Shown here: one piece after another, positions 4,237-21,759 of the stretch
Numbering within the stretch: the first letter of the stretch is position 1
Layout of the letters: each line of letters opens with the position of its first letter
Notes under the pieces: generated by a model
What the model was told of the DNA's origin: nothing
What the model saw: only the letters and a program-made list of their open reading frames with translations
Database searches by the model: none
Origin: Methanoregula sp.
GTDB taxonomy: Archaea; Halobacteriota; Methanomicrobia; Methanomicrobiales; Methanospirillaceae
Assembly: GCA_026394605.1 (NCBI GenBank)
Contig: JAPKXY010000029.1
Coordinates: 1-64,000, forward strand
Direction: 5' to 3'
DNA length: 64,000 bases
Made by a program: the position numbers and the translations under genes

Positions 4237-5826
4237 TCAGTCAAGCAACGCACCCATGGCTGCATCATACCGTGCTGCCATGACATACTCAATACCGGAA
4301 ACCATTGAGGCATCCTCGGTAAGCGCCATCAGGTCATCGCGCGTAATTGTGGAGAGCCGGAAGTTCCTGCTGCCCGCCATGATCTGCTGGAGCCCGGTTC
4401 TGAACTTCTGCGTATACGTATAGATGCCAACCGCTCCCATGGGGATTTCTTTCATTCGTGAACCGTACTTTTCTTTCAGCTCTTCATAACAGACAAAGAC
4501 CTCCTCAACGTTGTTGCCGTACTTGGAGACCGTCTTTGGAAGGTCGCCTTCCTTGATCCACTTCTCGATGTTCTTGCCCACCATACCGGGGATCATGAGT
4601 CCCCTGCCCATGCAAACTGCTCTAAAATACGGGCTGCCCATTGCAAGTGCCTTGAAGACACCGGGCTCATCCGAGAACCCGCCTGCCATCGCAAGGTCGG
4701 GTACTCGCATGCCCTTCTTTGAAAGCTTCTCGGCAAAGTCGTACGCAAGTGCCTGCAGGTAGAACGTCGGGATGCCCCACTCGTTCATCATCGGCCACGG
4801 GCTCATACCGGTACCACCCGGGGCGCCGTCGATAGTGAGAAGGTCAATCTTTGCGTCGGAGCAATACCGGATCGCCATTGCAAGCTCAACCATGGAGTAC
4901 GCACCGGTCTTAAGCGTCACACGTTTGAACCCGATGTCCCGCAACCGGTCGATCTCTTCGAGGAACCCTTCCTTGGTGACAAAGCCGAGCCTTGAATGCC
5001 GCTCGAACTCCTTAATCGCACCTGCCTTGAATGCAGCCTGGTTTTCCTTAAGGGTTGGGTCGGGCAGGACGATGTAGCCACGCTTCTTGAGTTCGATCGC
5101 ACGCTCAAGCGAGCGTACCTTGATCTCCCCGCCGATGCATTTGGCACCCTGGCCCCACTTCAGTTCGATTGTATCCAGGTTGTGTTTTGATGCGACGTAT
5201 TCCGCGGTTCCAAGACGGGTATCTTCCACGTTCATCTGGACGAGGATTTCCCCATAGCCCTCGTAAAACTTCTTGTAGGTTGTGATGCGGCGGTCCATCT
5301 CGGGAGATTCCCTGACCTTGCCCTTGCTGTCAAGCTTGAGAGCCGGGTCAACACCGCAGACATTCTCCCCGCACACACAGGTGATGCCAGAGATCGCCGC
5401 ACCGACAGCAAAATGCTCCCAGTTAATCCGTGCAATATCTGTTGAACCCAGCGCACCCGTGAAGATTGGCAGGCGCATCTTCACCTTCTTGTCCCAGCCG
5501 TACTCAGTCTCGGTGTTCACGGTTGTGAAGACCGCTGTATCCGGACCGATGTCAGTTCCCTCGGGAAGTCCTTTCGCCCCGACGGCATACCCCTGAATGT
5601 TGAGGTGAGAGTAATCGATCGGGTAATTCTTGTCAGCACCTGCGGTAATCTCACCGAATGGGCCAGGATACAAAACCTCCCTGCCCCTGAAGGATGAGAG
5701 CCAGATTTCACAGCTGCCTTTACATCCATCCATGCAGCGGGTGCAGATGCCGGACATCGGAACTACGTCCCGTGAACGGTTCACTGTTCCCGTTGCCTCG
5801 TTTGCATTTGGCTGTCGAAGATTCAT
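4237..5826 (-). CDS. gltB: Glutamate synthase-related protein, FMN-binding domain
   Basis: About 529 residues with the FMN/oxoglutarate-binding (GltS central) domain of glutamate synthase, which reduces the imine formed from 2-oxoglutarate and ammonia. Diagnostic blocks are KWGQGAKCIGGEI, LLTIDGAPGGTGMSPWP and the glycine-rich LAMAGGFSDEPGVFKALAMG. A cysteine cluster near the N terminus (CTRCMDGCKGSC) and CVCGENVCG could bind iron-sulfur. The glutaminase (class II amidotransferase) domain is absent, and no gene for it lies nearby. In archaea these domains are often separate genes. ATG at 5826 is chosen because GGAGTGG precedes it; an in-frame ATG at 5862 lacks a site. Exact substrate specificity is inferred. 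Confidence 0.88.
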   Translation of the reverse strand: MNLRQPNANEATGTVNRSRDVVPMSGICTRCMDGCKGSCEIWLSSFRGREVLYPGPFGEITAGADKNYPIDYSHLNIQGYAVGAKGLPEGTDIGPDTAVFTTVNTETEYGWDKKVKMRLPIFTGALGSTDIARINWEHFAVGAAISGITCVCGENVCGVDPALKLDSKGKVRESPEMDRRITTYKKFYEGYGEILVQMNVEDTRLGTAEYVASKHNLDTIELKWGQGAKCIGGEIKVRSLERAIELKKRGYIVLPDPTLKENQAAFKAGAIKEFERHSRLGFVTKEGFLEEIDRLRDIGFKRVTLKTGAYSMVELAMAIRYCSDAKIDLLTIDGAPGGTGMSPWPMMNEWGIPTFYLQALAYDFAEKLSKKGMRVPDLAMAGGFSDEPGVFKALAMGSPYFRAVCMGRGLMIPGMVGKNIEKWIKEGDLPKTVSKYGNNVEEVFVCYEELKEKYGSRMKEIPMGAVGIYTYTQKFRTGLQQIMAGSRNFRLSTITRDDLMALTEDASMVSGIEYVMAARYDAAMGALLD

Positions 5827-6055
5827 AATCCACTCCGATAAAATATTTTTGCAGTCGTTCAATTATTTTAATGCACGTCTGAGCGACAACGTGCTCAAAC
5901 AGAATAGTTTTAATTTAGCTTCGTTAATAAGCGCTTGCTTTCCACCCTATCTTAAAGGTTTTGCTTTTTCCAGATCTTTTTCACATAAATTCAGGTAAAA
6001 GTCCATCATTTTCGATAGAAAAAATGAAAAAATGATTAAAAACCTAATCGGGATT

Positions 6056-7162
6056 TCATATATGGATCATATTATAATGGCTGCTGCCCATACCGAGTTC
6101 TTCCGCGTAATGGATCTGCTGGTACCCTTCCGTGTTCTCCCATGTACCGCTGAATTTGTCCTGCCCCTTCCTGCGGTGGGTTTGCAGGAGTGAATCGGCA
6201 AAGCCCGGTTGATCGTTCACGAGCGCGAAACCCGCTGCATCGATCGCCACCGGATCGGTGGATGCGAGAATACCAATATCGGGTACAATTGCCGCATCGC
6301 TCCAAGGGACACAGTCACAATCGGGAGTAATGCGGGTGAGGAAACTGAAATAACCAACCCTGCCCTCCTTGCCCTTCACCGCACCGCAGGCATATTCCAC
6401 GAGCCGCTCGACAAACTGCGGGATCTCGGTGGCCCAATTGATATCGATTGCATGTTCGGGGCAGACGGTCATGCACTCAAAACAGCCGATACAACGGTTC
6501 CGGTCGATCACAGATCTCTTTTTTTTAATTGTGATTGCAGACTTCGGGCAGGCAGCGACGCATTTCCCGCACCCGATGCACCGCTCGCCGATGGTAAACG
6601 GGTGAGCCTCGTGCTGTTCCCGTTTTCCTGCCGGTGGCGCACAGCCCATGGCAAGGTTCTTTATCGCCCCGCCAAAGCCGGCAACCATATGCCCCTTAAA
6701 GTGCGTCATGACGATCATGCTGTGCGATACCGCAATATCACCGGCAATCGCCACGCGTTTAAAGTGCTTCCCTTTGATAGTGACCCAGGTGATATTGGTT
6801 CCGAAGAGCCCATCGGCGATAATCACCGGTGCCCCTGCCACAGCATAGTCAAACCCATGCAGCACCGCGGTGGTGATGTGATCCACCGCGTTCGACCGGC
6901 TGCCGAGATAAAGCGTATTGGTATCAGTTAAAAACGGCAATCCCCCGCACTCTTTCACCTTGTCAACCACCTGGCGCACAAAGACAGGACTGATATAAGA
7001 ATCATTGCCAAGCTCGCCAAAATGGAGCTTGATTGCCGTGCGGTCCCTGTTCTGGATCAGGGAAGCAAACCCCGCACGGTCGAAAAGCTCGCGTACCTTG
7101 GCGACCGTGCTCGTGTTCTCGTCCCGCGCCCGCAGGCTTGCGAAATAGACCTTACTCCCCAG
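6056..7162 (-). CDS. DUF362 protein with two [4Fe-4S] motifs; apparent CTG start
   Basis: Full protein of about 368 residues. The DUF362 domain (N-terminal SKVYFASLRA block, IKLHFGELGN, MTHFKGHMVAGFGGAIKN) encloses two ferredoxin clusters, CIGCGKCVAACP and CIGCFECMTVCP. It is probably an iron-sulfur electron carrier or scaffold; the family's function is unclear. The first ATG/GTG/TTG in frame is GTG at 6979, but the conserved coding frame continues 61 codons further to AGT-AAG-GTC. The only candidate initiator before an in-frame stop is CTG at 7162-7160, preceded by GGTGG at 7171-7167. An ATG at 7176 is out of frame. The start is therefore CTG, or a base is wrong or lost there. Confidence 0.85.
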   Translation of the reverse strand: MGSKVYFASLRARDENTSTVAKVRELFDRAGFASLIQNRDRTAIKLHFGELGNDSYISPVFVRQVVDKVKECGGLPFLTDTNTLYLGSRSNAVDHITTAVLHGFDYAVAGAPVIIADGLFGTNITWVTIKGKHFKRVAIAGDIAVSHSMIVMTHFKGHMVAGFGGAIKNLAMGCAPPAGKREQHEAHPFTIGERCIGCGKCVAACPKSAITIKKKRSVIDRNRCIGCFECMTVCPEHAIDINWATEIPQFVERLVEYACGAVKGKEGRVGYFSFLTRITPDCDCVPWSDAAIVPDIGILASTDPVAIDAAGFALVNDQPGFADSLLQTHRRKGQDKFSGTWENTEGYQQIHYAEELGMGSSHYNMIHI

Positions 7163-7277: not shown

Positions 7278-8666
7278 TTAGAGGTATTCGTCCCGTTTGC
7301 GGGGAATTGGCGTGTCTTTTTTCCTGAGCTTGACATCACGCGCTCGATCGAAATAAATACGGGAATATTCCGGTCGTCCCATCTCCTTTAAGCATACCCC
7401 AATGTGATTCCACGCGCTCTCGTTATTCGGAAGTTTATCCGTGACCATGTGAAATGTCTGGAGTGCTGCATCCAGATACTTGTTATTCTTCTGCATCACC
7501 CCGATCGTTTCGAGAGTTACACCGAGTTCATAGAGCACCTCAACTGAATCCGGCGCAAGTTCGACCGCACGGAGGAACGACTTGAGTGATTTATCGTACT
7601 CGCCCAGTTCGCGGTAACAGAAACCCCGGTCATTCCAGACATGGGCGAGAGTCTCGTCGATCTCCAGCGCTTTGTCAAATGCCGCGACCGCGTCGCGGTA
7701 GTTGCGTTCATGCCCGTAAAGCCGGACACCTTCTTTATAGAGAGAATTCGCTGTACCAAGGATCCGGTCAACCAGTGTGGCTGAGGGCTCGGGAACCCCT
7801 GCAGCTGCCGGTTGCGCGGCGGGTGCAGTATCACTGGCTGCCGGTTCCGGCAACGGGACGTCTTTGACCGTCGCCGTGATGTCACGCACCGCCCCCATGG
7901 AGGCGATGAAATTCCCCCGGCCATCATAGAGCGGCATCGCCTTCATCCAGAGCGTCAATGCCTTGCCATCAGGTTTTATCCCTTTCGTGACCGCGATCAC
8001 GGGGCCTTTCTTGACCCTGCTGACCAGCAGGTAGTTTTGCTTCTGGATATCATCGTCTTTTTCAAAAACCAGATCGATGAGCATGCGCTTTTTTATGCCA
8101 AAAAATGGTTCCGCGTAGGCAAAGTCGCCTTTCTTGATCATGGCGGATGCAGGCATGCCGGTAAGTTGCTCTATCGCTTCATTCCATGCAATCACCTTCC
8201 CGTCCCGGTCAATTGCAAAGGTAGGGTCAGAGGAGAAATTTATCGTATCGGTGAGTGTCTTCTGCAGACTGCCGATTGGGCGTCCGGCAATACGCCCGTT
8301 CACTGCCTGATCAATCCGCTCCAGAACGGTACGCAGTGCCGTTTCCGGGTTCTCACCCTTCTGCACAAAAAAGTCAGCACCGGAATTGAGTGCCTCGATA
8401 GCCGCATGTTCCCGCCCAACACCGGTAAATATGACCACCGGCGTGGTGTCGCCGCGCGTGCGCAGGATCTTGAGAAAACCGAGACCATCGATTTCCGGCA
8501 TATCATAGTCCAGTACGATTGCATCGAATGTAATGGAGGAAAGTATACTCAACCCCTCACGCGCGGTACGTGCAGTGCGCACCTGCGCATTCCCCGCGCG
8601 GGAGAGGAATGCCCGCATCGCTTCAAGGAGCGCCGGGTTATCATCAACAACAAGGACAGAAAGCAT
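7278..8666 (-). CDS. REC-PAS-TPR signalling protein (copy 1)
   Basis: 462 residues. Residues 1-120 form a response-regulator receiver with acidic pair D8/D9, phosphoacceptor Asp53 (VLDYDMPEIDG), Thr81 and Lys103 (VQKGEN). A PAS domain (about 150-280, WNEAIEQLTGM to GAVRDITA) follows, then an Ala/Pro-rich linker and TPR repeats (about 310-450, for example AHVWNDRGFCYRELGEYDKSL). No DNA-binding or enzymatic output is visible, so it probably relays phosphorylation to protein-protein contacts through the TPRs. ATG 8666 (MLSVLVVDDN) is preferred over the ORF opening at 8690. It is a paralogue of the next protein with the same domain order and near-equal length. Confidence 0.88.
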   Translation of the reverse strand: MLSVLVVDDNPALLEAMRAFLSRAGNAQVRTARTAREGLSILSSITFDAIVLDYDMPEIDGLGFLKILRTRGDTTPVVIFTGVGREHAAIEALNSGADFFVQKGENPETALRTVLERIDQAVNGRIAGRPIGSLQKTLTDTINFSSDPTFAIDRDGKVIAWNEAIEQLTGMPASAMIKKGDFAYAEPFFGIKKRMLIDLVFEKDDDIQKQNYLLVSRVKKGPVIAVTKGIKPDGKALTLWMKAMPLYDGRGNFIASMGAVRDITATVKDVPLPEPAASDTAPAAQPAAAGVPEPSATLVDRILGTANSLYKEGVRLYGHERNYRDAVAAFDKALEIDETLAHVWNDRGFCYRELGEYDKSLKSFLRAVELAPDSVEVLYELGVTLETIGVMQKNNKYLDAALQTFHMVTDKLPNNESAWNHIGVCLKEMGRPEYSRIYFDRARDVKLRKKDTPIPRKRDEYL

Positions 8667-8838
8667 AGAGCTGGTTCCTGCAGGGAACACGGGATATCAT
8701 AGGCGCTTGACCCTCCAATTCACCCAGTGTCTCATATTCATGCTATTTCTTCTCTTTAATATTTGAGATTTGGTTTACAGAATGATATGCCGTATAACAC
8801 GTGCTGATGCACCATATGGATCGTAAACGGAGGATCCA

Positions 8839-10218
8839 TTAGAGAACGGTGTCTCGCCTCCGCTGGAACATGCGATCCTTTTTTGCCCTCACAATCGAGC
8901 TCGCCCTTTCAAATGCATTACGTGCTTCATCCTCCTGCCCAATCTCCCTCGCGCAGATCCCGATGTGGTTCCACGCATTCGCGTTGTTCGGGCTGATTTC
9001 CGTAACAGTTGAAAATGAATGGATTGCAGAATCGAGAATCTTGTTTTCGCGGCGCAGGATCCCGATCGTCTCGAGCACCTCACCGTAGTCATACAGGTAC
9101 TCCTCGTCTTTTGGGGACAGTTCAAGCGCACGCTCAAAGCTTTTCTGCGCTTCCTCGAATTTACCCAGCTCCTTCAAACAGGATCCCCGATCATTCCACA
9201 CATAGGCAAGACCGGAATCGATCTCTGTTGCCCGGTCAAAGCACCGGATCGCTTCCTCAGGCTTTCCTTCCTTGTAACAGAGCCGGACACCCTGCCGGTA
9301 GGCTGCCTTTGCCTTGCCAGTAATACGATCAAGCAGCCCGCCATGTGCCGGTGTTGCGGCCCCGGCTGACGGAACCGAAGCGGACGGTGTCGCAGGAACC
9401 GTGGATCTCAGTGCTGCGCCTGCAAGATCGGTGATATCGCGCACGGATCCGATTGCCCCGATAAACACCCCTTTGCCGTCATAAAGCGGCATCGCACGCA
9501 TCCAGAGTGTCAACTCCCTGTTGTCAGGGCGCACTACACGCGTCCACGCGATTACCGCTCCCTTATCCCTGCTCACGATATTGTAATTATGGGCACCGAG
9601 CTCCGCGTCCGTTGCAAAGACAAGATCGATAAGCATGGGCACTTTTTTACCGAAGAACGGCACGGCATATTCGTAATTACCCCTACCAATCATTACTTCG
9701 GCATTGACACCGGAGAGATCCGCTATTGCTGTATTCCATGCAACCACGGTACCTTCGCGATCGATCCCCACCATTGCTTCCGGTGAAAAACTCATCACAT
9801 CTGAGATAATCCTCTTAGAAGTGCCCGGCGACCTGCCAACCGACCTGCGATCGCGGGCCTGCTTGATCATGTGCGCAAGCTCACGGAACTGCGTCTGGGG
9901 GTCATCACCCTTTTGCAGGAAGAAGTCAGCACCGTTGTTAAGCGCCTCGATCGCGGCGTGCTCCCGCCCGACACCGGTAAAGATGATGATCGGGGTGGTG
10001 TCCCCCTTTGCCCGCAGGATCTTTAAAAAATCGATGCCGCTGATCTCCGGCAGGGAATAGTCAAGGATGATCGCATCATATTCTTTTTTATCTACCTGGT
10101 TCAGGGCGTCTTTTGACGAGCGGGACGTATCCACTTTCATGTCCCCATACCGCTCGAGAAAATGGCGGACGTGGTCAAGGAGGTCGGGTTCGTCATCAAT
10201 GACAAGGATAGAGAGCAT
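8839..10218 (-). CDS. REC-PAS-TPR signalling protein (copy 2)
   Basis: 459 residues, same architecture as the neighbour downstream. The receiver has Asp53 (ILDYSLPEISG), Thr81 and Lys103 (LQKGDD). The PAS domain is WNTAIADLSGV to GSVRDITD, followed by a low-complexity Ala/Pro/Ser linker and C-terminal TPRs (LAYVWNDRGSCLKELGKFEEA). The two genes are tandem on the same strand, about 170 bases apart, and similar along the whole length, so they arose by duplication. The linkers differ most. No kinase is adjacent; the nearest is the one at 19599, which has its own receiver. ATG 10218 gives MLSILVIDDEPD, matching copy 1. Confidence 0.88.
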   Translation of the reverse strand: MLSILVIDDEPDLLDHVRHFLERYGDMKVDTSRSSKDALNQVDKKEYDAIILDYSLPEISGIDFLKILRAKGDTTPIIIFTGVGREHAAIEALNNGADFFLQKGDDPQTQFRELAHMIKQARDRRSVGRSPGTSKRIISDVMSFSPEAMVGIDREGTVVAWNTAIADLSGVNAEVMIGRGNYEYAVPFFGKKVPMLIDLVFATDAELGAHNYNIVSRDKGAVIAWTRVVRPDNRELTLWMRAMPLYDGKGVFIGAIGSVRDITDLAGAALRSTVPATPSASVPSAGAATPAHGGLLDRITGKAKAAYRQGVRLCYKEGKPEEAIRCFDRATEIDSGLAYVWNDRGSCLKELGKFEEAQKSFERALELSPKDEEYLYDYGEVLETIGILRRENKILDSAIHSFSTVTEISPNNANAWNHIGICAREIGQEDEARNAFERASSIVRAKKDRMFQRRRDTVL

Positions 10219-10277: not shown

Positions 10278-10766
10278 TTATTCCCTCTTCCCCAGTTCGT
10301 GGTCAAGGCAGAAGAGGTGCCCGGGTATATCACCGATGGTCCTGATCTTTCCAAGGATCTCGCTTGCGTGCTCCTCCTCCTCAACCTGCTCTTTCACAAA
10401 CCACTGGAGCGTCTCGAATGTTGCGTGGTCCTTTTCCTTCATTGCAAGCTCGACAAGCGCGTTAATCATCCCTGTCACTTTCTGCTCGTGCGCATAGACC
10501 TCTTCGAACACCTTTGCAGCCGACGTCCACTTTGCCTTGGGTGCCTCGATTGCAAGCAGGTTCATCTTGCCGCCACGGGCGATTACGTAGTCATAGAACT
10601 TGAGCGCGTGCGTCTGCTCTTCCTTTGCCTGCAACCGCATCCATTTCGCAAAGCCTTTCATGTTTGCTGACTCGAAATATGCAGACATCGCAAGGTACAG
10701 GTATGCCGAGAAATACTCGCGGTTGATCTGTTTGTTGAGCGCTTCTTCCATATTCTTACTTAACAT
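10278..10766 (-). CDS. ftnA: Ferritin (non-haem, iron storage)
   Basis: 162-residue four-helix ferritin that oxidises Fe(II) and stores the mineral in a 24-mer shell. The ferroxidase-site residues appear in INREYFSAYLYLAMSAYFE, KEEQTHALKFYDYV and the late helix FVKEQVEEEEHASEIL. The C-terminal LFCLDHELGKR tail is like that of bacterial-type FtnA. A strong GGAGGA ribosome site precedes ATG 10766. It lies just downstream of the copper ATPase/YHS genes but is separated by about 180 bases, so it probably has its own promoter. Confidence 0.95.
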   Translation of the reverse strand: MLSKNMEEALNKQINREYFSAYLYLAMSAYFESANMKGFAKWMRLQAKEEQTHALKFYDYVIARGGKMNLLAIEAPKAKWTSAAKVFEEVYAHEQKVTGMINALVELAMKEKDHATFETLQWFVKEQVEEEEHASEILGKIRTIGDIPGHLFCLDHELGKRE

Positions 10767-19598: not shown

Positions 19599-21401
19599 AT
19601 GGATCGGTTTGTAACCATCTGGCATTACAGGGTCCCACATACCGATCTCGTCCGCTTCTGGGTGATTGCCTCGCTTGCCATCTCCAGCACTTTCGTCACT
19701 GCACTCGCACTGGCCGGAAATATCGATACAATCTACCCACAACTATTTTACTTCCCGATCCTGTATGCAAGCTATTTTTTCCCCCGCCGCGGGATCTATG
19801 TCGCCGGTTCATGTGCGGTCGCATATGAGGCAATCTCATACTACTACTCCTTCCCGAATCTGCTTGGCATGGGATATGCCACGGGGCAGGGGATTTTCTT
19901 TATCTGTATCGGTGCCGCTGTCTCCTATTTTACCGACAAGATCAGGACCAGCGAGGCGCGGTACCGCAGCATCTTTGAGTATTCGCAGATCGGCATTGTG
20001 CTTTTTGACCAGAACACCTTTGCCGTCACGCTCGCAAATGACCAGTTCGGGGCGATGCTGGGGTATACAGCGGAAGAACTGGTAAAAACACCATTCTCCC
20101 ACCTTTTTTTCAACAGGGACGAACAGCGCCGTTTCTATGAGCGGTTCGGGTCAAGTGAAGAAATAGTCGACTTTGAGACCCGGTTAGCGACAAGGGGTAG
20201 GGAACCGTTCTATGTAAATCTGTCGTGGAGCCGGCTCAATGGGAACCTCGTCAGCTGCTCGGTTATAGATATCAACACACGCACACAGGGCAAGGAGGCG
20301 GCGGAAGACCACGCTGCCAGGTACCGGCAGGTCACCGAAAGTTCACCGACTGGTATTGTCATCATCCAGAATATGCAGATCATCTATACCAACCCGTCAT
20401 TTACTACGTTCTCCGGCTACGCGAGAGACGACCTGATCGGGCGTGAACTGTCTGCGTTCGTTCACGCCGATGACATCACAGATTTCCAGGGATATTTGAA
20501 GCAGGCAGAGACCCCCCCCGTGCCTTCTGGTAAGACAGAGTTCAGGTTTCTGACAAAAACAGGGGAAACAAAACTTGCAACGCTGTTTTCAACGACGATA
20601 AAGCAGGGCGGAAAACCTGCACTGCTCGTGAATATTGTGGATATCAGCGAACGGGAGAAACTCAAGGATCAGATCGAACAGGATAGCGAGAGACGGCGGG
20701 GCGTCATTTCCACGGTAGCGCACGAGCTGCGTACACCCCTTCAACCGATCATGGGTTACCTGAACCTGCTCATGCAGGACCCAAAAGGGTTCGGGCTTAC
20801 GGACGAGACCAAGAACATTCTCGACCGGTGTCTGCAGAGCGTCGACCGCGAGCGCCAGATCATCAACCAGATGCTGGAGTTTTCGGTGCTCGATTCCGGT
20901 AAGACCGATCTGGACTACTCAACTTTTTCCCTTAGCGCTCTGTTGAAAAACATCATCGAAACTGGGGGTTACATGATGAAGGCAGATATCGCAATCGAGA
21001 TCCCGCTTGACGTCACGTTCGAAGCAGATCAAAACAAGATCTATGTCGTGATTAATTCGATGCTCTCCAATGCGGTGAACTACTCCAAACCGCCCAGAAG
21101 GATTAAAATTATCTACCGTTCATCCGGCAGTGATACGCACCACCGCCTCGCTATACAGGATAACGGCGTCGGCATCACCGGAACGCAGCTTGATGCGATC
21201 TTTGAACCGTTCCAGCTCGCTGATTCGGAAAAACTGAGCCGGAAGTACGATCGTATCGGGCTTTCGCTCTCTATCGCAAAGAAATACATCCAGATGCACG
21301 GTGGTTACATCAGTGTAGACAGCATCGTGAGTGTGGGGAGCACTTTTACCATCCATATCCCGAAAATTCGACCCAAGGAGGTTGTAAAAGATGGCACGTA
21401 G
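19599..21401 (+). CDS. PAS-sensor histidine kinase
   Basis: 600 residues. About four N-terminal membrane helices (to roughly residue 112) are followed by two PAS domains (about 118-235 and 240-350), then HisKA with the phospho-His at about 373 (VAHELRTPLQ) and a HATPase domain (SMLSNAVNYS N-box; DNGVGI G1; GLSLSIAKKY G2). Signal unknown; no large extracytoplasmic domain, so it may sense membrane or intracellular cues through PAS. The gene for a single-domain receiver overlaps its end by 11 bases, forming a two-component pair. Confidence 0.92.
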   Translation: MDRFVTIWHYRVPHTDLVRFWVIASLAISSTFVTALALAGNIDTIYPQLFYFPILYASYFFPRRGIYVAGSCAVAYEAISYYYSFPNLLGMGYATGQGIFFICIGAAVSYFTDKIRTSEARYRSIFEYSQIGIVLFDQNTFAVTLANDQFGAMLGYTAEELVKTPFSHLFFNRDEQRRFYERFGSSEEIVDFETRLATRGREPFYVNLSWSRLNGNLVSCSVIDINTRTQGKEAAEDHAARYRQVTESSPTGIVIIQNMQIIYTNPSFTTFSGYARDDLIGRELSAFVHADDITDFQGYLKQAETPPVPSGKTEFRFLTKTGETKLATLFSTTIKQGGKPALLVNIVDISEREKLKDQIEQDSERRRGVISTVAHELRTPLQPIMGYLNLLMQDPKGFGLTDETKNILDRCLQSVDRERQIINQMLEFSVLDSGKTDLDYSTFSLSALLKNIIETGGYMMKADIAIEIPLDVTFEADQNKIYVVINSMLSNAVNYSKPPRRIKIIYRSSGSDTHHRLAIQDNGVGITGTQLDAIFEPFQLADSEKLSRKYDRIGLSLSIAKKYIQMHGGYISVDSIVSVGSTFTIHIPKIRPKEVVKDGT

Positions 21402-21759
21402 AATCATGGTTGTGGAAGACGATCAGCCGATCCTCGAGCTGATGGAGATCCTGCTGCGGAGGCTCGGATATGAGCCCATCCTCGTCATGAACGGGCTGGA
21501 GGCACTTGAAGAAGTGAAAAAGAGCCCGCCTGAACTCATCCTGCTCGATATTATGATGACACCGATTAACGGGTGGGAGATCCTGGAGAAACTGCGGGGG
21601 GAGTACGGGCAAAAAGACCTGCCCGTGCTCCTCTTTACAGCAGCCCCGATGGTACAGAAAGAGGTGGCGAAGCTTAATGACCCGGCGCTTGGGATCCTCC
21701 AGAAACCGGTATCGTTTGCGGAACTGTCTGCTGCACTCCAGAAGTTCCTGAGCCGGTAG
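21391..21759 (+). CDS. Single-domain response regulator
   Basis: 122 residues, only a receiver domain: acidic pair in MVVEDDQP, phosphoacceptor in LILLDIMMTP, Thr in LLFTAAP, Lys in LQKPVS. No output domain, so it works as a phosphorelay or by protein binding. It starts inside the kinase gene (AAAGATGGCACG; GGAGGTTG just upstream acts as ribosome site), so partners are made together. Confidence 0.93.
   Translation: MARRIMVVEDDQPILELMEILLRRLGYEPILVMNGLEALEEVKKSPPELILLDIMMTPINGWEILEKLRGEYGQKDLPVLLFTAAPMVQKEVAKLNDPALGILQKPVSFAELSAALQKFLSR

Follow-up and report, generated by a model that had tools for sequence, protein, structure and literature searches.

The DNA analysed here, referred to as the window, is a stretch of 64,000 nucleotides from Methanoregula sp. 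(assembly GCA_026394605.1, contig JAPKXY010000029.1, positions 1 to 64,000), whose genome is a 1.62 Mb assembly of 60 contigs with 11 receiver and 13 HATPase matches. Two adjacent genes, A and B, encode proteins with an N-terminal receiver (REC), a PAS domain and C-terminal TPRs, and lie in the order ferritin, B, A, DUF362, glutamate-synthase-like gene (Table 1). The two proteins are 49% identical from end to end over 474 alignment columns. A sequence-only reading of this DNA had described them as full-length REC-PAS-TPR paralogues carrying an intact phosphoacceptor site; the position it gave for the pair was right, and the alignment of both copies that it proposed is the one reported here.

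Table 1. Coordinates of the REC-PAS-TPR genes, their domains and the genes discussed with them.
Feature	Position	Strand	Remarks
Copy A, REC-PAS-TPR, 462 aa	7278..8666	-	Stop end at 7278, native ATG/Met at 8666; ORF call reaches 8690 (GTG)
Copy B, REC-PAS-TPR, 459 aa	8839..10218	-	Stop at 8839, native ATG/Met at 10218; ORF call reaches 10245
Receiver domain, copy A (D8, D9, D53, T81, K103)	8340..8657	-	PF00072, 87.9 bits
Receiver domain, copy B (D8, D9, D53, T81, K103)	9898..10209	-	PF00072, 88.3 bits, genome contig scan
Best-scoring TPR, copy A	7548..7640	-	PF00515 match
Best-scoring TPR, copy B, containing conserved W341 and C347	9106..9207	-	PF00515 match and alignment
Ferritin-like gene	10278..10766	-	PF00210, 148.6 bits; 59 bases before native start of copy B
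DUF362 / 4Fe-4S ferredoxin-like gene, downstream of copy A	6056..6979	-	PF04015, 150.2 bits
Glutamate-synthase-like gene	4237..5862	-	PF01645, 48 bits; follows next in many of these loci, its cluster in 14 loci
Histidine kinase, PAS-PAS-HisKA-HATPase	19599..21401	+	
REC-only gene	21391..21759	+	

All three parts of both proteins scored above the Pfam cut-offs: Response_reg with 84.8 and 84.7 bits (cut-off 30.2), PAS with 38.3 and 35.4 bits (cut-off 22.6) and TPR_1 with 63.0 and 79.8 bits (cut-off 27.8, three stretches each); taken together, the TPR_1 and TPR_2 matches exceeded the curated cut-offs with 58-80 bits in two to three stretches. The order REC, then PAS, then TPR within one protein was found for A and B by Pfam as well as in the predicted fold. 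Numbered from the native Met, which for copy B coincides with the start of the alignment in many relatives, residues 8, 9, 53, 81 and 103 are D, D, D, T and K in both copies, that is, the acidic pair, the phosphoacceptor Asp, the Thr/Ser and the Lys of a receiver are all present. The predicted Asp53, Thr81 and Lys103 were thus confirmed, as was the absence of a recognised DNA-binding output: neither DNA-binding, kinase nor enzyme domains, including the HATPase and HisKA core of a hybrid kinase, were detected among all 20 matching Pfam families for A and the best 25 of 36 for B. Binding to DNA through an unrecognised segment of A or B may nevertheless occur. Among the NCBIfam models, none exceeded its own cut-off within the best 25 of 93 families for A and the best 25 of 101 for B, and the OmpR, FixJ, NarL and PhoB matches were far below cut-off and confined to the receiver.

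A fold predicted from an alignment of 24 sequences (mean pLDDT 80, pTM 0.41) consists of a receiver, a PAS domain, a low-confidence linker (residues 271-300) and helical pairs spanning residues 295-444, with block means of pLDDT between 77 and 94 across residues 301-450. High-ranking matches to solved structures (Foldseek) were designed and consensus TPR proteins, MamA and receivers; none among the best 60 of 543 sequences of solved structures spans both halves of the protein. Together with the Pfam scores, the model indicates that the C-terminus is TPR and not another known output domain, as the sequence-only reading had supposed. Since the pTM is only 0.41 and pLDDT falls below 50 at residues 126-131 and 271-300, and to 64-73 in the receiver near T81-K103, the model is silent on communication between the domains.

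The earlier suggestion that this domain order is not a standard type holds only in part. Table 2 of Galperin et al. 2018 (PMC5847659) gives TPR-like domains for six archaeal response regulators, with the architectures REC-PAS-TPR and TPR-TPR-TPR-REC, from Methanolinea and Nitrosopumilales, and the architecture proved common in the window's family. What does stand is that it has remained uncharacterised: the REC-PAS-TPR row of that table carries neither function, partner, kinase nor gene context and does not name Methanoregula, and according to the same source regulators of the REC-PAS class had no experimental study and no known partners at that date. A and B have the domain order of that row, and Methanolinea is also among the genera from which homologues were recovered here, a likeness by genus and architecture, not by accession. 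In the literature searched, the term REC-PAS-TPR was found in PMC5847659 only, the combination of "REC-TPR" and "response regulator" in no paper, and the main text of a 2025 study on Methanosarcina (PMC11784639) returned no use of TPR or REC-PAS in a term search.

The distribution of the family was followed at two levels. A profile of 24 homologues was searched against 108 genomes of the window's family (best 15 candidates each, counts read by hand), and 76 full-length copies were present in 53 genomes among the matches listed; the domain order is therefore not a product of chance. Order-wide, 149 of 150 genomes gave some match (best 10 candidates per genome scored), and all full-protein matches among those listed lie within the window's family. 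Outside it, the listed matches cover approximately the first 275 residues and mostly represent the front of longer open frames. Of the eight genomes of the window's genus, seven carry the tandem pair (G000, G011, G156, G157, G158, G159 and G160), and it was not found among the matches listed for G143. The best 80 named records with full-length relatives belong to Methanoregula, Methanolinea, other Methanoregulaceae, or entries labelled Methanomicrobiales or Euryarchaeota, plus a single relative labelled Syntrophaceae. The latter, a REC-PAS-TPR copy of 412 residues, lies together with a ferritin gene and two fragments belonging to the same cluster on a 3.2 kb contig (L163, JAFNGM010000010.1), which is probably archaeal DNA placed in the wrong bin. 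An alignment and tree of 73 proteins place the Methanolinea copies and those of the window in one family.

Over the REC-PAS half, identity to the N-termini of further open frames throughout the order is 40-49% (rows listed); most of these frames are much longer, and a few are short (281-473 residues). A scan of seven of them identified six as REC-PAS(n)-HATPase proteins; the seventh, L178, is truncated by its contig end. The REC and first PAS domains of A and B are thus homologous to those of the REC-(PAS)n-HATPase kinases of Methanomicrobiales; unlike these kinases, A and B have no HATPase match and carry TPRs in its place. In an unrooted REC-PAS tree of 54 rows (30 REC-PAS-TPR proteins out of 72, comprising 28 chosen at random and the window's two, and 24 others), the REC-PAS-TPR proteins form one side of a single branch (support 98/79, recovered in 100% of 200 bootstrap trees). 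Given that their REC-PAS half is similar to the N-terminal part of REC-(PAS)n kinases, REC-PAS-TPR proteins probably arose once, when a REC-PAS kinase had its kinase core replaced by TPRs. As no root was determined, the direction of this swap is what we infer from that resemblance. With respect to the tandem pair, the free tree grouped the B copies of the window's genus with the A copies (97/85), contrary to the ferritin locus that B shares with copies of other Methanoregula; a constraint uniting B with those ferritin-locus copies was not rejected (p-AU 0.157, the group being named after inspection of the tree).

Residue conservation was evaluated in 89 full-length ORFs from the fetched loci, which in part represent the same DNA and were reduced to 73 distinct homologues by dropping identical proteins. 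D8, D53, T81, K103, W161, N162, W416, C347 and C422 are present in all 73, D9 in 72 and W341, which we take to be a TPR hallmark residue, in 70. The two cysteines, presumably occupying one and the same position of the TPR consensus, are constrained about as strongly as the TPR framework. In 98 other TPR repeats that a regular expression retrieved from seven stretches of the same genome, the equivalent position was never Cys, being Ala in 63 and Ser in 18. Nor was it Cys in any of 16 repeats from six other fetched ORFs. The expression is crude, as it matched just 49 repeats across the 73 REC-PAS-TPR proteins, 48 of them with Cys. A similar "GVC" motif, uncounted by the expression, occurs in a TPR-only protein of locus L129 that adjoins a homologue, and the TPR cysteine is therefore not exclusive to REC-PAS-TPR proteins. 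Just upstream of ferritin and REC-PAS-TPR in the same locus and adjoining a short TPR protein, a 338-residue protein without Pfam match (L129:5851-6867) belongs to a cluster of nine.

Gene neighbours were called as longest non-overlapping ORFs, grouped into BLASTP clusters and identified from one scanned member per cluster, for 72 REC-PAS-TPR genes (L051 is missing from this list). Directly upstream on the same strand lies ferritin in 20 cases (gaps of -53 to 56 bases); adenine deaminase takes this place in 16, an M48 peptidase in 14 and a further REC-PAS-TPR cluster member in seven. Downstream, a DUF362 ferredoxin gene follows in 20 of the 72, a histidine kinase in 19, another REC-PAS-TPR cluster member in eight and a family of ~340 residues without Pfam match in a further eight; its representative, L136:3533-4573 (346 residues, no Pfam match), appears by eye to be secreted or membrane-bound. 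The ferritin and DUF362 contexts go with Methanoregula-type copies, and the kinase context with the Methanolinea-type branch of the tree (19 of 23 rows), in which L143, L160 and L161 have no adjacent kinase and L051 does have one in its uncounted row. Because the window's genes sit in a cluster of ferritin, one or two REC-PAS-TPR copies and DUF362 ferredoxin, iron or redox handling is plausibly the process regulated in this lineage. Nevertheless, gene neighbours need not be partners, and as they vary by clade (ferritin/DUF362; adenine deaminase and kinase; M48 peptidase; others), no single process is implied for the family.

The DUF362 gene of the window deserves a remark on its start. In its frame (6056-7162, minus strand), none of the codons ATG, GTG and TTG is present where the N-terminus seems to lie, and the listed ORF comprises 307 aa compared to ~370 aa in many relatives. 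A CTG at 7162 precedes "GSKVYFASL" and follows two in-frame stops. The true start is probably located further upstream.

The sequence-only reading had assumed a remote kinase and had named the one encoded at 19599 as an example. No kinase gene lies beside the A/B pair in the window, in agreement with the first assumption for this lineage; loci of the Methanolinea type, on the other hand, usually have a kinase immediately downstream. Orthologues of this Methanolinea-type kinase were searched for in the 108 family genomes (best 11 candidates each, counts read by hand, 42% identity or more being regarded as a clear orthologue) and were detected in 20, 19 of them full length and one (G167) truncated where its contig ends. 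Behind these, the best of the remaining listed matches reached 34-36% over part of the protein. In all 20 genomes the orthologue adjoins a REC-PAS-TPR gene. The one member scanned has PAS, GAF and HATPase domains behind an N-terminal segment that is hydrophobic by eye, and an HD(I/V)NN box was seen in 19 of 20 Methanolinea-type kinases collected from the loci; in L149, the pattern matched another site. Judged from this co-occurrence, the adjacent kinase is probably the cognate kinase in Methanolinea-type species, which represents the strongest lead to a partner, for the Methanolinea group only. No orthologue was found among the matches listed for the remaining 33 of the 53 genomes with REC-PAS-TPR, nor among those for the window's genus, where the best match in G000 showed 31% identity over residues 22-260.

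The kinase at 19599 itself was judged an unlikely partner of A and B. Its gene overlaps the REC-only gene by 11 bases, which suggests that these two form a coupled pair, and its presence in the genus is patchy: among the eight genomes, a full-length orthologue occurs in two (G000 and G011), a split one in G159, and partial ones in G143, which has no tandem pair, and in G157, which has one. A close match is absent from those listed for G156, G158 and G160, all of which contain the tandem pair. Two points speak against this judgement: a REC-only ORF was not recognisable among the ORFs listed beside the G011 orthologue, and two of the three genomes with no close match are less than fully complete (G158 83%, G156 99%). 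This kinase had clustered early with the Methanolinea kinases, a grouping that does not reflect orthology because pairwise identity was just 21-30%, in some cases over part of the protein.

Taken together, REC-PAS-TPR proteins are a genuine and conserved response-regulator family, so far found in Methanoregulaceae-type genomes, whose output is likely protein binding; the idea of a phosphorylatable receiver joined to a protein-binding repeat is supported by inference. We propose, with a probability of roughly 65%, that A and B are two-component response regulators acting via phosphorylation-gated protein binding. A histidine kinase would phosphorylate Asp53, the PAS domain would dimerise or might sense a small ligand, and the change would be relayed to the C-terminal TPR superhelix, which would bind or release a partner protein. 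The output would thus be a protein-protein interaction and not DNA binding. The kinase would probably be the product of the adjacent gene in Methanolinea-type species and be encoded at an unlinked site in the window's lineage.

A scaffold that works unphosphorylated, in which PAS senses, the TPRs bind the partner and the receiver serves mainly for dimerisation, is the best of the other explanations, if an unlikely one. It would agree with the missing kinase neighbour of the window's pair and with the proposal in PMC5847659 that REC-PAS proteins may sense and act through dimerisation. A receiver used for dimerisation alone, however, need not keep its phosphorylation residues, which are retained in 73 of 73 homologues (D9 in 72), and an adjacent kinase recurs in the sister clade. 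Slightly less probable still is an indirect regulator of transcription, whose TPR half would contact the basal machinery or a DNA-binding protein and thereby control the adjacent ferritin/DUF362 or kinase genes. The short distances to recurrent same-strand neighbours, above all ferritin, are as such a regulator would have them; these neighbours differ from clade to clade, however, and the Pfam families surveyed for A and B contain no DNA-binding domain. That A and B drain phosphate from REC-PAS hybrid kinases, as sinks or competitors which the TPRs merely position nearby, we consider improbable: their receiver and PAS domains do resemble those within REC-(PAS)n kinases, and REC-only proteins are discussed as phosphate sinks in Methanosarcina (PMC11784639), yet the recurrent close neighbours and the invariant residues in the TPR half suggest a dedicated output. 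Very unlikely, finally, is a redox- or metal-gated signalling scaffold in Methanoregula, in which C347 and C422 would sense oxidant or metal, phosphorylation of Asp53 would set the state of the PAS dimer, both would control a complex with the products of the neighbouring ferritin and DUF362 ferredoxin genes, and the tandem copies would heterodimerise.

The archaeal REC-PAS and REC-PAS-GAF regulators covered in PMC5847659 also combine receiver and PAS without a DNA-binding domain, and dimerisation or protein contacts have been proposed for them, as here; in A and B, in contrast, a recognisable protein-binding repeat follows the PAS domain. The Rap proteins of Bacillus (RapF, RapH) are likewise TPR proteins in two-component signalling, but consist of a 3-helix bundle and TPRs that bind other response regulators, with no receiver in the domain description given in PMC3246441. 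Phosphotransfer in a methanogen two-component system has been demonstrated for FilI-FilR1/FilR2 of Methanosaeta harundinacea (PMC3991700), where FilR1 differs in having an ArsR-related putative DNA-binding domain. REC-PAS proteins of the same organism are called unusual there, and one of them, Mhar_0169, was used as a negative control.

Most archaeal genomes lack the main bacterial classes of DNA-binding regulators, and by what means their receivers bring about an output is an open question. The REC-PAS-TPR family gives a handle on this question, as it offers a protein-binding module together with a recurrent kinase in one genus group and a recurrent ferritin/ferredoxin locus in another. The architecture as such was already known; added here are its spread in Methanoregulaceae-type genomes, the occurrence of the tandem pair across the genus, a kinase gene next to REC-PAS-TPR in a sister group, the gene context with ferritin and DUF362, and two TPR cysteines that do not vary. 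TPRs are also found elsewhere in the genome: two giant open frames, G000:C22:32960-40187 (2447 residues) and G000:C38:18659-29872 (3812 residues), contain the majority of its listed TPR_1 matches.
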